A stretch of DNA of 64,000 nt from assembly GCA_013377095.1 (NCBI GenBank), contig JACAAY010000012.1, forward strand, positions 1 through 64,000. The letters are read 5' to 3'. The translations under genes were made by a program, and so were the position numbers. Below are positions 14,790 through 21,606 of this stretch, in pieces. Every line of letters begins with the position of its first letter. Within the stretch, counting starts at the first letter, position 1. Source of the stretch: Desulfuromonadales bacterium (GTDB lineage Bacteria; Desulfobacterota; Desulfuromonadia; Geobacterales; Pseudopelobacteraceae). The notes beneath the pieces are model-generated. The model ran no database searches. It saw nothing but the letters and a program-made list of their open reading frames with translations, and had not been told where the DNA came from.

Positions 14790-15389
14790 TCACGGCGCGC
14801 GTAAGCTTACTTCAACACCAACTGACCAGGGAACCAATATCTGTTTGCCGGTATTTGCCTCTACACAGAAAAACAAAAGGTTTGCAATATAATTGTACTG
14901 AACGTTTGTAAGTTTTGATGCAGTAAAAGCATTCAAGAGAACCGCTCCGTCACTAAGTCCTAAAATTGGAATTCCGTCAATTTTCAATGTGCCTGGACCA
15001 GGGATTACCCCACCAACCCCTTGAGTAATATTGGTATATGCTGGATTAGGTATAACCGGTGATAGTGCATTTGAGGAATTATCTGTATTGGAGGAAGGTA
15101 GCGGCGTCAAGCTCATTGAGATTCGACTAATACTAACCGGTGAGGTAGGTACAGTGTTATTGGTACTTGTTGCAACAGAAGTCAAGGTAACGCTTATTGG
15201 ACTCGCCGTAAATACACTACTACCAGTAGATGTAGTACTAATATTCGCAAAAACACTTCCAGCTGACCCAGTTGTTATTCCGGCGGTCACAGCTACCGTA
15301 TTACCAATGGCTGTTGTCCCACCACTTCCACAACCAGCTATAAACAGAGCCAAACCAAGAGTAAGAATCCCCTTTAAAAACCAATTCAT
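14790..15389 (-). CDS. Uncharacterised Ser/Thr-rich lipoprotein at the end of the pil operon
   Basis: A 199-residue protein that I do not recognise. It has a lipoprotein signal (lipobox FIAGC, Cys20). A long low-complexity region rich in Thr, Ser, Val and Gly follows (about residues 24-105), then a proline-rich stretch and a more ordered C-terminus (residues 130-199) with one Cys in LLFFCVEANTGK. GGAGG lies 6 bases before its ATG. It begins 76 bases after the pilQ stop on the same strand, with no terminator seen between, so it is probably transcribed with pilM-Q. An outer-membrane or pilus-associated role is inferred from position and signal only. A function as a pilotin cannot be claimed. 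Confidence 0.7.
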   Translation of the reverse strand: MNWFLKGILTLGLALFIAGCGSGGTTAIGNTVAVTAGITTGSAGSVFANISTTSTGSSVFTASPISVTLTSVATSTNNTVPTSPVSISRISMSLTPLPSSNTDNSSNALSPVIPNPAYTNITQGVGGVIPGPGTLKIDGIPILGLSDGAVLLNAFTASKLTNVQYNYIANLLFFCVEANTGKQILVPWSVGVEVSLRAP

Positions 15390-15465: not shown

Positions 15466-18261
15466 CTAGGATATTCCCAATATCCTTGGAGTTATAAATA
15501 TAAGCAATTCTGTTTTAGTTTTTGTTTTGTTGCTTGTTTTGAATAATTTACCAAAAAGCGGTATATCCATTAAAAAAGGAACGCCTTCATCAGAATCATT
15601 ATCAGAGTCAACAAAAATCCCACCAATTACAGTTGTCTCACCATCTCTCAGTAACATTTCCGTTGTTGCCTGTTTCTTATTAATAGCAGGAGCCGTGCTC
15701 CCGGTTGGAACTGTTCCCACGGAATCATTCTTTGCATCGATTTTCATACCGATAGTTCCATTGGCGTTAATGTGCGGAGTAACCTCAAGCGCAAGAGCAG
15801 CCTCAATAAACTTTGTCTCAACTTTATCTGATGTTGAAGAAGTGTAAGGAACCTGCTGCCCCTGAGTTATCTTAGCTGTTTTATTGTTGATTGTTGCCAC
15901 CTTCGGAGTAGACACAATTTTAATTAAACCAGCAGCTGCCGCAGCGCTAAGCCTCAAGTCCAAACGAATATTGCTTGCCAACGTACCAAATGAAATACCC
16001 ATATTGCCACCGGATTGCGTTCCGGTACCACTTGTAGGGGGGGTGGATGTCAGGCCTCCAAAGCCTGTATCAAGGCCGGTAATTCCAAGAATTGAACCAG
16101 CAGCATCACGATAATGAATACCCCAGTTAACTCCCAGACTGCGGGTAAACGTTGAAGTTGCTTCAACGATACGGGCCTCAATCATAACCTGTCTTTCTGG
16201 AATATCGAGCTGAGCAAGCAGTCTTCGCATATCCTCAATAACCTGTGGTATATCTTTTACAATAACCTTATTGGTTCTTGCATCTGGCGAAATAATACCG
16301 CGGTCAGACTTTATTGCAGTAAACTGAGATACTATCCCCCCAATATCGGAATAGTTAATATTGAATGTCTCCGACTTCAACTCTATGGATCTGAGCTGTG
16401 TCTTTTTAATTTCCAGATCCTCGTCTGCCTGTGATTTAAACTTTCCTTTACCCTTTATGATGATTATGTTGCCATCTTCACGCTTATCAAGCCCCTTAGT
16501 ATCCAAAATAATATCCAGAGCCTGGTCCCAAGGAACATTCACAAGTTTGATACTTATCGAGCCGGTTACATCGTCTCCTAGCACAAAGTTTTTATTGCTT
16601 ACCTCAGACAGGAGTTGGAATATCTTACGTACCTCCGCGTCTGCAAACTCAAGAGTCACCTTACGACCTTTATAAGATTTTGACGAATCAAGCGGTTTAA
16701 GTGAAGGCTCAGCGTGGGAAACTAACTCTGTATTTAGCTCAGTATCTTTATGTGCATTTGCCTTTACTTCTCGATAACTATTTAGTCGATTATCCTGAAG
16801 ATCAGAAGTAATATTATCAACTGTCATACTTACTGGATTTTTAAAATCCAAGAAAAGCATATCTCCTTCCTGCCTAAACTCGTAAGGAACATTTTTACGC
16901 ATTGCAACACGTATTTTTGTATCTATAGCCTTACGGGATTTAACTTGGAGCGGCGTAACTCGCAGCACCGGGGAGACAAAACCCTTTGTCTCTAATGATC
17001 GTTGCAGTTTTTTTGGTAGTGCAGCATTCTTAATGGTTAATGTTACAAAACCAGGAGACTTTATCGGCGAATCAACGACAAAATCACCAACGATTTTTAC
17101 AGCAACTCGAGAAATTCCATCAACCACCTGAAAATCGATCATTTCAACACTTGGAGCAACAACATGCTCTGTGCTTTTTAAAGTTGTTTGCAATGCAGGT
17201 TTTTCTGTTAATGATGCAGGTACCGCTACAGGGGCAGACTTTGGCAGATTTGTTGAAACTGGTTCTGGCACTTTAACCGGTTCTGATAATTTATCATTAT
17301 TTTTTGCAGTCATCAAACGTGTGTTCGGATTTTCTTCAGAAAGTGTTTTTTTAAAAGCAATTGTCACACCTTCAGCAGACTTAAAAATGGTTGACTCAGG
17401 AAAACTGCCATCCACCGTATCAAACACAACTCTCACTTTTTCAGGGTAAATACCCAAGCGCGCTGAAGACACACCAAATGAGTTAATAGGAATTATTCTT
17501 GGCGACAAGGAACTGCTAACTCCCTGCAAATCAACAACATACCGCTCTGGTTTGCTAAGTCGAATTGTCTTAAATTCGCCTGCACCACCTTCTATTGTGA
17601 GAACAACAGTATTGTCTTTGATGGATATCGCTGTCAAAGCTCTCACAACAGAAGCATGCACTGAAGGTGTAGAAGCTGTCGATGGAACTATTACAGAAGA
17701 TTGTTCAGGAACAGTCGTTTTGGGGGGTGTTATAGCATCATCTTTTACTTGCTCCACAAGTGCTGCCTTAGAAGCATTGGCAGAATCAGCAACTGCTGGC
17801 TGCGCAGCCAGTAACGGAAATGCCACCCGTATCTCGCCTGGCTTTTCCTGAGACACGGAAAGAACGGCATCCGCATCATTCTTTAGTTCCACATCAACAC
17901 GGGTCAAGACCCCTGCATCGGTATCATAACGATTAACATTAACATTTTTGAAGTTACCCTTATTAAATATAACCGGTGAAATAACTTTCCCCTGAGTTGT
18001 TTGAGACAAATCAATAACAAGTCTAAGTGGTGATGTAGTTTTGTAACTGGTATATGTAGCAGGAGAGGATAGTTTAATAACAAGTTCAGCCGCATCCCCC
18101 TCACCACTCACCGTGATTGCTTCAACGTCAGATAATTTTATTTGCGCGTTTTGTGGAGTTTCCCGAGCAGATTCCGCGTCACTCGGAACAACACTCGCTA
18201 AGCCCACCACAAGTACAAGGGCAAAGGCCAAAACTATCGATTGTTTCGTTATCCACCTCAT
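15466..18261 (-). CDS. pilQ: Type IV pilus secretin PilQ
   Basis: The outer-membrane secretin through which the pilus passes. From the chosen start it has 931 residues: a signal peptide (hydrophobic IVLAFALVLVVGLASVV), several AMIN-type peptidoglycan-binding segments (for example LVIDLSQTTQG and YVVDLQGVSSSL) with Pro/Ser/Val-rich linkers, a STN/secretin N-terminal domain (VTLEFADAEVRKIFQLLSEV), an N1 domain and the C-terminal secretin barrel with ERQVMIEARIVEA, LLRDGETTVIGGIFVD and FGKLFKTSN. The start at 18261 follows AAGGAG and lies 10 bases after pilP; an upstream in-frame reading from 18390 would overlap pilP heavily and has no signal peptide at its start. It is larger than the Pseudomonas homologue because of the AMIN/linker region. 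Confidence 0.96.
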   Translation of the reverse strand: MRWITKQSIVLAFALVLVVGLASVVPSDAESARETPQNAQIKLSDVEAITVSGEGDAAELVIKLSSPATYTSYKTTSPLRLVIDLSQTTQGKVISPVIFNKGNFKNVNVNRYDTDAGVLTRVDVELKNDADAVLSVSQEKPGEIRVAFPLLAAQPAVADSANASKAALVEQVKDDAITPPKTTVPEQSSVIVPSTASTPSVHASVVRALTAISIKDNTVVLTIEGGAGEFKTIRLSKPERYVVDLQGVSSSLSPRIIPINSFGVSSARLGIYPEKVRVVFDTVDGSFPESTIFKSAEGVTIAFKKTLSEENPNTRLMTAKNNDKLSEPVKVPEPVSTNLPKSAPVAVPASLTEKPALQTTLKSTEHVVAPSVEMIDFQVVDGISRVAVKIVGDFVVDSPIKSPGFVTLTIKNAALPKKLQRSLETKGFVSPVLRVTPLQVKSRKAIDTKIRVAMRKNVPYEFRQEGDMLFLDFKNPVSMTVDNITSDLQDNRLNSYREVKANAHKDTELNTELVSHAEPSLKPLDSSKSYKGRKVTLEFADAEVRKIFQLLSEVSNKNFVLGDDVTGSISIKLVNVPWDQALDIILDTKGLDKREDGNIIIIKGKGKFKSQADEDLEIKKTQLRSIELKSETFNINYSDIGGIVSQFTAIKSDRGIISPDARTNKVIVKDIPQVIEDMRRLLAQLDIPERQVMIEARIVEATSTFTRSLGVNWGIHYRDAAGSILGITGLDTGFGGLTSTPPTSGTGTQSGGNMGISFGTLASNIRLDLRLSAAAAAGLIKIVSTPKVATINNKTAKITQGQQVPYTSSTSDKVETKFIEAALALEVTPHINANGTIGMKIDAKNDSVGTVPTGSTAPAINKKQATTEMLLRDGETTVIGGIFVDSDNDSDEGVPFLMDIPLFGKLFKTSNKTKTKTELLIFITPRILGIS

Positions 18262-18271
18262 GCGAAACTCC

Positions 18272-18835
18272 TTATTGTTTCCTCGGCATGCTGATTTTAA
18301 TGTGCTCTTTGCGCACCCTGCCGTTATCATCCTTAAACTGCTCCAGCACTTCAACTCCATTATTTGCAATTGACACAATCCGACCATCATTTTTTCCTAT
18401 TGTCATGCCAACCTTAAGGACATAGCCTTTTCCATTAGGGTCTGTCACCATTGCCTGGCTCTCTTTGCCCCCCGAAATAACACCTATCAACTTAAACTGA
18501 CTGATATCAAAGCTGTGAATAGGAAGTGCAAGTCTCTGGTTATTCCGCAACTTTTCAGCAGACAATATTGGAACTTTTTTAATAATGGCGTAGGGTTTAA
18601 ACGGATCTTTTTTCGTACTAAAATCAAACTGATTTACTGGCGGTACATTCAACTTTAATGATGTACTAACCTGTTTTTGAACCGGTTTTTGTGGTTGCTT
18701 TGCAGGGAGTGGTGCAGCAGGTACTGGTAGAGGGGGAGGCTCATTTTTACTGCATCCATGAGCAAACAAAACAACTGTTGCAATGCCGATCAACAGCATA
18801 AACTTATGACTATTTTTTGACAGTTTTTGAGTCAT
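18272..18835 (-). CDS. pilP: Pilus assembly lipoprotein PilP
   Basis: Inner-membrane lipoprotein that links the PilMNO platform to the PilQ secretin. From the chosen start (18835, after AAGAGA) it has 187 residues, a signal with lipobox FAHGC (Cys28), a proline-rich stretch (residues 31-50) and the C-terminal PilP/HR fold, visible in KDPFKPYAI and FKLIGVISGGKESQAMV followed by GKGYVLKVGMTIG. The start overlaps the end of pilO by 26 bases. The longer reading from 18877 would put charged residues before the signal peptide and is less likely. Confidence 0.94.
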   Translation of the reverse strand: MTQKLSKNSHKFMLLIGIATVVLFAHGCSKNEPPPLPVPAAPLPAKQPQKPVQKQVSTSLKLNVPPVNQFDFSTKKDPFKPYAIIKKVPILSAEKLRNNQRLALPIHSFDISQFKLIGVISGGKESQAMVTDPNGKGYVLKVGMTIGKNDGRIVSIANNGVEVLEQFKDDNGRVRKEHIKISMPRKQ

Positions 18836-19415
18836 TCTTAATCTCTTTCTTGTCAAGGAAGCGGAAAGTTGTTGCAAGACAATTTACCTTGGTTAGTATC
18901 CTATTATTAACACTCTTTACATCTGTGAAAGCGACATTTGTTATGTTGACAATCCGCGGTAAATTTGAAACAGCAGCGAAAAAATTGGCTACACTATAAA
19001 AAGAACCCGACACTGTAATTTCAACAGGAACCTCGGCATAGAAATCTTTTGAAACCTCGGATTTCGGTTTAAAAGACAGGAAATCAAGTCCGGAACTTTT
19101 GCCAAGTGTAGTAATACTTGTCAAGAGCGATGGGATCTCCTTGGAGTTGGGTAATTCAGTTAATGCCTGCACAAGCTCTCGATTTAGCTGATCATACTCC
19201 TGCTGTAACCTGGGCAGGTTAGCCACAATTCGATTTTTTTCTTCAATTTCATTTTGCAACTTAGTCAAATCAGCTTTCAAGCTCTCATGTTCTTGATACA
19301 CTGGCCTGTACAAAAACCAAACCAGTGCAGTTGCTTCAAGAATCATGAAGAGTACAAATAAAAGTATCTTTTGTTTAGTCGGCAATTTGAGCAATTTTTC
19401 AACTTGTGGATCCAT
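18810..19415 (-). CDS. pilO: Pilus assembly protein PilO
   Basis: Bitopic inner-membrane platform protein that pairs with PilN. It is 201 residues long, with a short cytoplasmic N-terminus, one transmembrane helix (about residues 18-36), a coiled coil (about 40-90, rich in L, Q, E and K) and a periplasmic ferredoxin-like domain containing FLSFKPKSEVSKDFYAEVPVEI-type strands. This is the standard PilO layout. It lies between pilN and pilP with the usual gene order, 28 bases after pilN. Confidence 0.94.
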   Translation of the reverse strand: MDPQVEKLLKLPTKQKILLFVLFMILEATALVWFLYRPVYQEHESLKADLTKLQNEIEEKNRIVANLPRLQQEYDQLNRELVQALTELPNSKEIPSLLTSITTLGKSSGLDFLSFKPKSEVSKDFYAEVPVEITVSGSFYSVANFFAAVSNLPRIVNITNVAFTDVKSVNNRILTKVNCLATTFRFLDKKEIKNDSKTVKK

Positions 19416-19443: not shown

Positions 19444-20049
19444 CTATTTTACGTGTGTGGCAGGCGCAGGTGATAACGGTGCCGGTTGCTGTGATTTTGA
19501 AGCCTCTACAGATGAACGCAACTTACATGTAATATCAAATCTTTTATACTTAACACCTTCCGATTCTTTTTGTTCGGAAACCAGGAGTTCGACGCCTGCA
19601 TAGTCAGTAGATGCTTCAAGGGAACGCATGAAATTTGCAATCATTTCTTCATTGAAGGCAAGACCTGACATTTTTATGTCGGCATTGGTCTCTGTATAGG
19701 ATGTCAGCCATAATTGATCTGGTGCGCTATCGCTAAGTATTGCGAGCCTTTGAGCAGGACCAGTTTTGTTTTTCCGTAATTGATTCAATACATCAAGCTT
19801 CTTCTTGACCTGCTCCTTGAGTGTTTTTAGCTCTTCTAATTTACCAATTTTTGACTTCAGGTCATTAATTTTATTGTTTGCTGTTGAAATGTCATTTTTA
19901 GTATCTGAGATTTGAAGGCGTTTCACAAAAAACATTGTCATGGCAATAGCAAGGACTAGAACCAGACCGAAAAAAAATATTGAAATTTGCTGTACAGCTG
20001 TTTCTTTCTTTTTTGCAGCCCTAACAGGCAAGAGATTAATTTTAATCAT
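19444..20049 (-). CDS. pilN: Pilus assembly protein PilN
   Basis: Bitopic inner-membrane protein of the alignment platform. It begins with the conserved cytoplasmic INLLPVR motif, which docks on PilM. A transmembrane helix (about residues 22-43) and a long coiled coil follow, then a periplasmic domain with LWLTSYTE and IKMSGLAFNEEMIANFM. Length is 201 residues, near the family norm. The ATG overlaps the pilM stop by four bases (ATGA). Confidence 0.95.
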   Translation of the reverse strand: MIKINLLPVRAAKKKETAVQQISIFFFGLVLVLAIAMTMFFVKRLQISDTKNDISTANNKINDLKSKIGKLEELKTLKEQVKKKLDVLNQLRKNKTGPAQRLAILSDSAPDQLWLTSYTETNADIKMSGLAFNEEMIANFMRSLEASTDYAGVELLVSEQKESEGVKYKRFDITCKLRSSVEASKSQQPAPLSPAPATHVK

Positions 20050-21101
20050 TTGTCTCCGACCCTCCTTATGGCAAGTCCAACAGGTACTGCCATCAGCGGA
20101 CCGATTTCCTGCAGGTAATCTGGGTCAAAATCCTTTTCAGAATATTGGAGTTTGGCAAATGGATTAATAAATTCCACAGGTAATGCAAGCTTTTCAGTAA
20201 TCGTGTAAACCAGGTTATACATTTTCGAACAGCCACCACTTACAAAAATTTTTGTAACTCTGTCATCATTAGCTGTTGAATTATAAAAGTCCAGCGAACG
20301 TCTAATTTCCTGCGTGATAGTATCGTTTACTTTGCTGATAACATCAGCAAGAGTGTCGCTGCGAGTTTCATGAGCCAACATCTTCAATGACTCGGCTTCA
20401 GCGCCACTAACCCCCAACTGTTTTTGAATATCCTCTGTATAGAGATTACCACCCATCTGTACATCACGGGTGAACAGAGTCAGACCGTCCTTGACCACAT
20501 TTATATTCATGATGCCGGCGCCAATATTCACCAACGCCAGAACCTCATCAGAATTGATGTCATGGTTAATTTCAAAGGCATTCTGGACGGCAAACGAATC
20601 AACGTCAACGACCGAAAGCTGCAGCCCAGCCTCATTAAATACTGTAACATAGTCATTAATAATATCTTTTTTGCTTGCAACAAGAAGAACATTCATCTTT
20701 GAAGGGTCAATATTATCCGGGGAAAGTATTTGAAAATCAATATTAACATCATTTATGTCAAAGGGGATGTATTGTTCGGCCTCCCAGCTGATCTGATCTT
20801 CAAGTTCATCAACTGACATGGCAGGAAGAGATATTTTACGTATGATTACTGAATTTCCAGATATGGAACAGGCCACTCCTTTAATTTTAACACCAAGGCT
20901 CGAGATCAGGTTGTTTATTGCGTCTACAATTGAAGAACTGTCCATAAGAGTATTATCGACAATAGCCTCGGGAGGAAGGGGCATAATACCAGCATTGATA
21001 AGTTGGTATCCTCCCTTATGCTCTTTTAGCTGAACAAGCTTTATAGAGCTGGATCCGATATCAATTCCGACGACTTCTTTATTTCTGTTTAATAAAAACA
21101 T
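20046..21101 (-). CDS. pilM: Pilus assembly ATPase-like protein PilM
   Basis: Actin-like (FtsA fold) cytoplasmic component that binds the N-terminal tail of PilN. It is 351 residues long. The phosphate-1 motif is VGIDIGSSSIKLVQL, followed by ISLPAMSVDELEDQISWEAE and FVSGGCSKM in the adenosine-binding part. It follows the small HTH gene after one base and is the first structural gene of pilMNOPQ. The whole operon lies downstream of a GEMM-I riboswitch on the same strand. Confidence 0.96.
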   Translation of the reverse strand: MFLLNRNKEVVGIDIGSSSIKLVQLKEHKGGYQLINAGIMPLPPEAIVDNTLMDSSSIVDAINNLISSLGVKIKGVACSISGNSVIIRKISLPAMSVDELEDQISWEAEQYIPFDINDVNIDFQILSPDNIDPSKMNVLLVASKKDIINDYVTVFNEAGLQLSVVDVDSFAVQNAFEINHDINSDEVLALVNIGAGIMNINVVKDGLTLFTRDVQMGGNLYTEDIQKQLGVSGAEAESLKMLAHETRSDTLADVISKVNDTITQEIRRSLDFYNSTANDDRVTKIFVSGGCSKMYNLVYTITEKLALPVEFINPFAKLQYSEKDFDPDYLQEIGPLMAVPVGLAIRRVGDK

Positions 21102-21102
21102 G

Positions 21103-21321
21103 TTATGATCCCGTCAGTAATTCAGTCTGAAAGACCTTTTCCTTATCTTCAAGTGAGTAACCCAATGCTAAGATTATTTTCCTCATTGTTTCCAAGCGAC
21201 ACTTCTCACCACGTTCAACCCTGTCGATGGTTAGTGAGGATACTCCAGCCTGGCGTGCTAATTCTGCCTTGCTCAACAAGCGCGACTCCCTGATTGACTT
21301 AACACTGTTTTGAATCTTCAT
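21103..21321 (-). CDS. Small Xre-family helix-turn-helix protein
   Basis: A 72-residue single-domain HTH_3 protein (Cro/CI fold): ESRLLSKAELARQAGVSSLT is the helix-turn-helix core, followed by IDRVERGEKCRLETMRKI. It has no effector domain. It is the first gene after the riboswitch leader, and its stop is one base from the pilM start, so it is expressed with pilM-Q. It may regulate this operon or another, or adjust expression by binding its own leader. None of that is shown by sequence. Confidence 0.85.
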   Translation of the reverse strand: MKIQNSVKSIRESRLLSKAELARQAGVSSLTIDRVERGEKCRLETMRKIILALGYSLEDKEKVFQTELLTGS

Positions 21322-21484
21322 ATTAGCATCCTAAGACATTGATAATACTGTCGTAAGATTTACTACAAATGACATCAAAGTCAAGTAATTTATATGAAGT
21401 TATATATAAAAACAGAAAATGACGGCTTTATTCCTCATTTTTACTCATTCTATGCATAAAAAAGTGTTATTTTTTCTTTTGGAC

Positions 21485-21535
21485 AAAAAAAACCGAATCG
21501 CCAAACTCTTTTCACAAGAAATTTCGGCGACCCGG
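21485..21535 (-). terminator. Riboswitch expression platform: intrinsic terminator overlapping the aptamer 3' strand
   Basis: On the minus strand CCGGGTCGCCGAAA (21522-21535) can pair with TTTGGCGATTCGG (21493-21505) with one bulged G and two G-T pairs, followed directly by eight T (21485-21492). The 5' half of this hairpin is the conserved 3' strand of the aptamer, so aptamer folding and terminator folding exclude each other. That predicts an ON switch: ligand prevents termination. Transcripts that pass it reach the HTH gene 164 bases further on. Confidence 0.85.
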
Positions 21536-21606
21536 CTATCTCGATGAGACCCAATGGGCTTTCCGTCCCACCCTCGCGGGTGGTTTAGTATTATCGGTTA
21601 ACTTGC
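21518..21606 (-). promoter_or_regulatory. GEMM-I cyclic dinucleotide riboswitch aptamer with A at the ligand-selecting position (predicted cGAMP type)
   Basis: Read on the minus strand, this carries the GEMM-I core: AAACC, a CACCC-GCGA-GGGTG hairpin with a GNRA tetraloop, GGGACGGAAAGCC, a second hairpin arm (GGGTCTC ... GAGATAGCC) and the closing GGGTCGCCG. Aligned by eye with the Vibrio Vc2 aptamer, the base that stacks between the ligand bases (A47) is present. The position equal to G20 is A (plus-strand T at 21589). The neighbouring 21:46 pair is C-G where Vc2 has G-C, a covariation that supports the alignment. A20 is the hallmark of GEMM-Ib aptamers from Geobacter that prefer 3',3'-cGAMP. 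The aptamer lies about 200 bases before the HTH-pilMNOPQ operon. Confidence 0.9.

Follow-up and report, generated by a model that had tools for sequence, protein, structure and literature searches.

The HTH-pilMNOPQ operon in a 64-kb stretch of DNA from a Geobacter relative (the whole of which we call the window) appears to be preceded by a cGAMP-sensing GEMM-Ib ON riboswitch that acts additively on an older, putative proximal promoter, a reading that we hold with a probability of roughly 0.7 on the evidence of sequence comparison. NMR and calorimetric work on the G. metallireducens pilM riboswitch describes it as a c-GAMP ON switch (PMC9262584), and most Geobacter species are reported to have conserved GEMM-Ib riboswitches ahead of their pilus assembly genes (PMC6456294). 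As cGAMP control of Geobacter pilM is thus already published (PMC9262584), the window represents a further case in a relative of that genus, indicating cGAMP control of a pilus-assembly operon beyond the model Geobacter species. The features discussed below are:

21523..21599, minus strand: GEMM-I aptamer, A20 type (RF01051, 44.9 bits, E 1.6e-5; our own model R1, 79.6 bits)
21510..21606, minus strand: aptamer with outer P1 helix (GCAAG with CUUGU; duplex fold −4.0 kcal/mol)
21485..21536, minus strand: intrinsic terminator, hairpin 21536–21493 followed by eight U (21492–21485), from fold energy and shuffles
21357..21384, minus strand: putative riboswitch-independent proximal promoter, TTGACT-N16-TAAATC, from TTGAC conservation
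21103..21321, minus strand: 72-aa Cro/C1-type HTH protein, first gene of the operon (Pfam HTH_3, E 9.2e-9)
20046..21101, minus strand: pilM (Pfam PilM_2, E 1.8e-83)
19444..20049, minus strand: pilN (Pfam PilN, E 9.4e-18)
18810..19415, minus strand: pilO (Pfam PilO, E 5.4e-48)
18272..18832, minus strand: pilP, start codon provisional (Pfam PilP, E 1.7e-14)
15466..18348, minus strand: pilQ, secretin with AMIN domains, start codon provisional (Pfam Secretin, E 2.8e-48; AMIN, E 2.1e-22)

Organisation of the operon

The order runs from aptamer and terminator through the HTH gene, pilM, pilN, pilO, pilP and pilQ to a small lipoprotein-like ORF (14790–15389). Gene order and Pfam matches uphold the first-pass annotation of this DNA, which had placed a riboswitch at the head of an operon encoding a small HTH protein and PilM to PilQ. 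The nearest PilM proteins, at 77–81% identity, come from Geobacter, Oryzomonas and Pelotalea records and from a genome of the same genus. A Geobacteraceae-like pilM operon was also found in a record titled Candidatus Nanosynbacter (L073, JARKOR010000265.1), which is probably mislabelled or a mixed bin.

Identity and register of the aptamer

In an Rfam scan of the 64-kb window (cut-off 35 bits), c-di-GMP-I was the sole match above its gathering score, aligned over the full length of the model (1–87), so that the GEMM-I riboswitch recognised in the first-pass annotation is a complete aptamer. The edge given there as 21606 is accounted for by the outer P1 helix (CAAG/CUUG), which extends to about 21605; the duplex energy of this helix falls within the range of related aptamers, ruling out a suspected weakness of P1. 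The hairpin that had been described as GNRA-capped is P2, with the loop GCGA.

According to the Rfam alignment, the RNA shares with Vc2 of Vibrio cholerae the GEMM-I fold, a GNRA loop and the C to which a ligand guanine pairs (C92 of Vc2, 21527 here). It differs in having A for G20 (21589, just 5′ of the two-pair P2 foot), C-G at 21:46 (21588/21563) and U-G at 22:45 (21587/21564). The Vc2 letters we take to be G20, G-C at 21:46 and C-G at 22:45, in agreement with the Rfam consensus.

The earlier assignment of A to position 20 depended on a register set by hand, which proved right: the structural alignments to Rfam and to our own model both give A, not G, at this position. The register is secure because the 21:46 pair covaries across 18 aptamers of the host genome (CG in 13, GC in five, broken in none), a set in which 14 of the 16 predicted aptamer pairs show two-sided changes. 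The five bases 5′ of the 21:46 pair also contain no G that could be slid into place, which rules out assigning G to position 20. The C-G at 21:46 was rejected as a mark of A20 aptamers in its own right, as it is shared by 12 of the 23 G20 aptamers of the host genome.

Ligand prediction

Structure 4YAZ, of an RNA homologous to the G. metallireducens pilM riboswitch, served as the reference for ligand contacts. The nucleotides that a review (PMC7288161) lists as touching cGAMP in this structure (G8, A11, A12, U13, A14, C15, A41, A42, G74, C75 and C76) are all matched in the window in a hand alignment on P2 of equal length. The pilM riboswitches of relatives are uniformly A20, both in the nine loci of named genomes and in the eight from other genomes of the family, two sets that overlap in part. 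The window RNA resembles the G. metallireducens riboswitch (PMC9262584) in operon position, in the A equivalent to position 20 and in a U-G pair at the P2 foot; it differs in host and in the sequences of P1, the P3 loop and the terminator. Our statements on A20 draw on open papers later than the pair of 2015 PNAS papers that defined GEMM-Ib.

Taken together, the 4YAZ contacts, the uniform A20 of the pilM-linked relatives and a GacA ortholog in the genome (below) make cGAMP a well-supported prediction for the ligand, and we infer that the window RNA prefers it; the earlier assignment to the cGAMP-type (GEMM-Ib) group thus gains computational support from A20 and the contact bases. A20 alone is no guarantee of selectivity, since a riboswitch of the A20 group upstream of OmcST reportedly responds to cGAMP and c-di-GMP alike (PMC6456294). 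That precedent, together with about 45 GGDEF matches in the host, nearly all with the ordinary Asp, so that c-di-GMP may be abundant, could be taken to mean that the window aptamer is promiscuous, responding in the cell to c-di-GMP at least as well as to cGAMP. We consider this improbable, because the G. metallireducens pilM riboswitch is described as sensing c-GAMP (PMC9262584) and both the contact bases and the U-G P2 foot are shared with the window.

Predicted cGAMP synthesis and GEMM-I content of the host

The GacA ortholog is a receiver-GGDEF protein (L149:2031-3449, contig C163) in which Ser (GHLVGS) replaces the ordinary Asp and the GGD start of the motif is kept (GGDEY). Its best PDB match is 6d9m, the solved GacA domain of G. 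metallireducens (E 2.7e-63; next best 4.4e-42). Ser at the ordinary-Asp position is the Hypr mark (PMC6456294, PMC8835794), and, with Hypr Ser348 and GGD both present, the host encodes a predicted cGAMP synthase. GacA-like proteins with Ser occur in 25 of 28 genomes, riboswitch-bearing or not, which rules out the absence of a synthase as the cause of absence of the pilM riboswitch.

A second candidate, possibly also a cGAMP synthase, is an HDOD-GGDEF protein (L150:1046-2533, C180) with Ser at the Hypr position and GGDEF intact; about 1.4 kb upstream of its gene lies a G20-type GEMM-I aptamer (L037), before a MerR-like/B12-binding-like ORF. A membrane GGDEF protein (L151:1542-2891, C1) carries Thr (GHLAGT) at the Asp/Ser position.

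The host has 41 GEMM-I aptamers over the cut-off, whereas the next highest of 76 family genomes has 24; the figure of 41 may be inflated, as the assembly is fragmented, has 5.56% contamination and contains nearly identical copies (L023 and L025). Eighteen are of the A20 type and 23 of the G20 type, so the host probably uses both messengers.

Terminator and predicted direction of switching

The final 14 bases of the aptamer double as the 5′ arm of the terminator hairpin. The fold of 21545–21475 has an energy of −27.6 kcal/mol (z −4.2), equalled by none of 200 shuffles. In all nine related loci, which come from named genomes and were reached via a PilM search, the 3′ strand of the aptamer is likewise drawn into a hairpin with a T-rich tract behind it, an arrangement held in common despite differing terminator sequences.

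As ligand binding and termination would compete for one strand, the window riboswitch should be a transcriptional ON switch. Without ligand, the terminator hairpin would capture the 3′ strand of the aptamer and the leader transcript would end short of the HTH gene; once cGAMP is bound, the aptamer would retain this strand, allowing read-through into HTH-pilMNOPQ. The G. metallireducens riboswitch (PMC9262584) has the same ON logic and a terminator that likewise takes up the ligand-pairing C. Structure thus points to ON as the direction in the cell. No convincing promoter was recognised in the window upstream of the aptamer, where sigma-70 candidates were indistinguishable from chance.

Distribution of the riboswitch among relatives

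An HTH homologue lies upstream of pilM in most of 80 PilM loci, and a riboswitch in at least nine; among the best 30 family-wide PilM loci, at least nine, the window included, have an intact one. These counts are minima, as some loci end short of the riboswitch site. Judging by these loci, the position of the HTH gene directly 5′ of pilM is old. In one genome of the same genus (G058, L188), the pilM locus has neither a riboswitch nor a recognisable HTH gene, and a TTGACA element is kept.

Patchy presence among relatives, and a truncated aptamer in one of them (L207, below), might suggest that the window riboswitch is itself a decaying, non-functional remnant. We regard this as very improbable indeed: its core, P2, P3 and competing terminator are intact, and P1 is paired though different in sequence.

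A putative proximal promoter and proposed additive control

Downstream of the terminator, 63 bases before the HTH start, the window contains TTGACT-N16-TAAATC. Of 63 loci, 60 have TTGAC within the interval 55–85 bases ahead of the HTH start, whereas a comparably long control stretch farther upstream contains it in four; the loci are mutually related, so 60/63 is to be read as a count and not as a probability. Loci with and without the riboswitch alike retain the element, which takes the perfect form TTGACA-N16-TATAAT in distant riboswitch-free relatives and TTGACA-N16-TAAATT or similar in Geobacter-like genomes. In the window the −10 half, TAAATC, is poor, and the proximal promoter may therefore be weak there.

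The L207 locus is informative in this regard. The upstream gene now ends within the former aptamer, of which P2 and the 5′ half are lost; the 3′ strand of P3/P1 and the terminator are retained, and the HTH gene, the pilM start and TTGACA-N16-TAAAAG are intact. An upstream transcript should always stop here, which makes the putative proximal element the most likely start of the operon.

In G. sulfurreducens, deletion of gacA lowers the regulator and pilMNOP 2–3 fold and several other targets 10–16 fold (PMC6456294). That regulon resembles the window in its regulator with pilMNOP, its GEMM-Ib riboswitch and its GacA synthase; it differs in having been followed by RNA-seq in mutants, whereas the window is known from sequence alone. 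A second promoter behind the riboswitch would be a simple possible reason for the 2–3 fold response.

The conserved element, the L207 locus and the 2–3 fold effect of gacA loss (PMC6456294) lead us to propose that cGAMP is an additive input: the riboswitch would be a later addition to a promoter that is older than it, independent of it and placed between terminator and HTH gene, and cGAMP would raise expression of pilus assembly modestly rather than gate the operon alone. We infer that both promoters are active. The competing view is that the cGAMP riboswitch is the sole gate and that the TTGAC element either serves the HTH protein as an operator or is a relic; the intact aptamer and terminator, like the poor −10 half in the window, fit this view. 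It is nevertheless unlikely, given that distant relatives lacking the riboswitch have a perfect TTGACA-N16-TATAAT, that relatives with the riboswitch retain the element, that L207 could hardly express its operon otherwise and that the published effect is 2–3 fold (PMC6456294). The first-pass annotation had put PilM to PilQ under cGAMP; this stands in so far as the riboswitch heads the operon, but probably not as sole control, since a promoter-like element lies behind the terminator, most relatives have the operon without the riboswitch and the published loss of the synthase costs 2–3 fold (PMC6456294).

The accessible literature on the G. metallireducens pilM riboswitch does not discuss a promoter behind the terminator, and we met no two-promoter reading in the accessible literature more widely, a search outside which the 2015 PNAS papers defining GEMM-Ib fell.

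In many Geobacter-like loci (L039–L118), TTGAC is preceded, at a distance of 19 or 28 bases, by a palindrome-like ATAATTATGCATAATTAT site, and in more distant relatives a similar site lies over the −10 (+23); none is clear in the corresponding region of the window itself (21400–21385). It is possible that this site is an HTH operator that changed place. As a tentative extension of the additive reading, and one we rather doubt, the cGAMP leader might be a movable layer on an ancestral HTH-regulated promoter, with read-through raising the HTH protein, which would act at the palindrome-like site. If true, the messenger would both boost and re-set pilus assembly, by feed-forward or feedback, a design for cGAMP and an HTH protein that we did not find in the accessible literature.

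Tandem aptamers elsewhere

At L033:4001-4307 (C220:58874-59180, minus strand), a G20 aptamer with terminator is followed, after 155 bases, by an A20 aptamer with terminator, the mixed tandem preceding an ORF that is lipoprotein-like and has a fibronectin III domain; were the two aptamers both ON switches, c-di-GMP and cGAMP would be needed together. Two further tandem GEMM pairs (L217 and L218) were ruled out as mixed G20/A20 on inspection. At L021:1725-2019 (C34), two tandem A20 aptamers, each with a terminator, lie before an L,D-transpeptidase (YkuD) lipoprotein, an arrangement resembling GSU0181-0183, a lipoprotein transpeptidase operon in the G. sulfurreducens regulon (PMC6456294).
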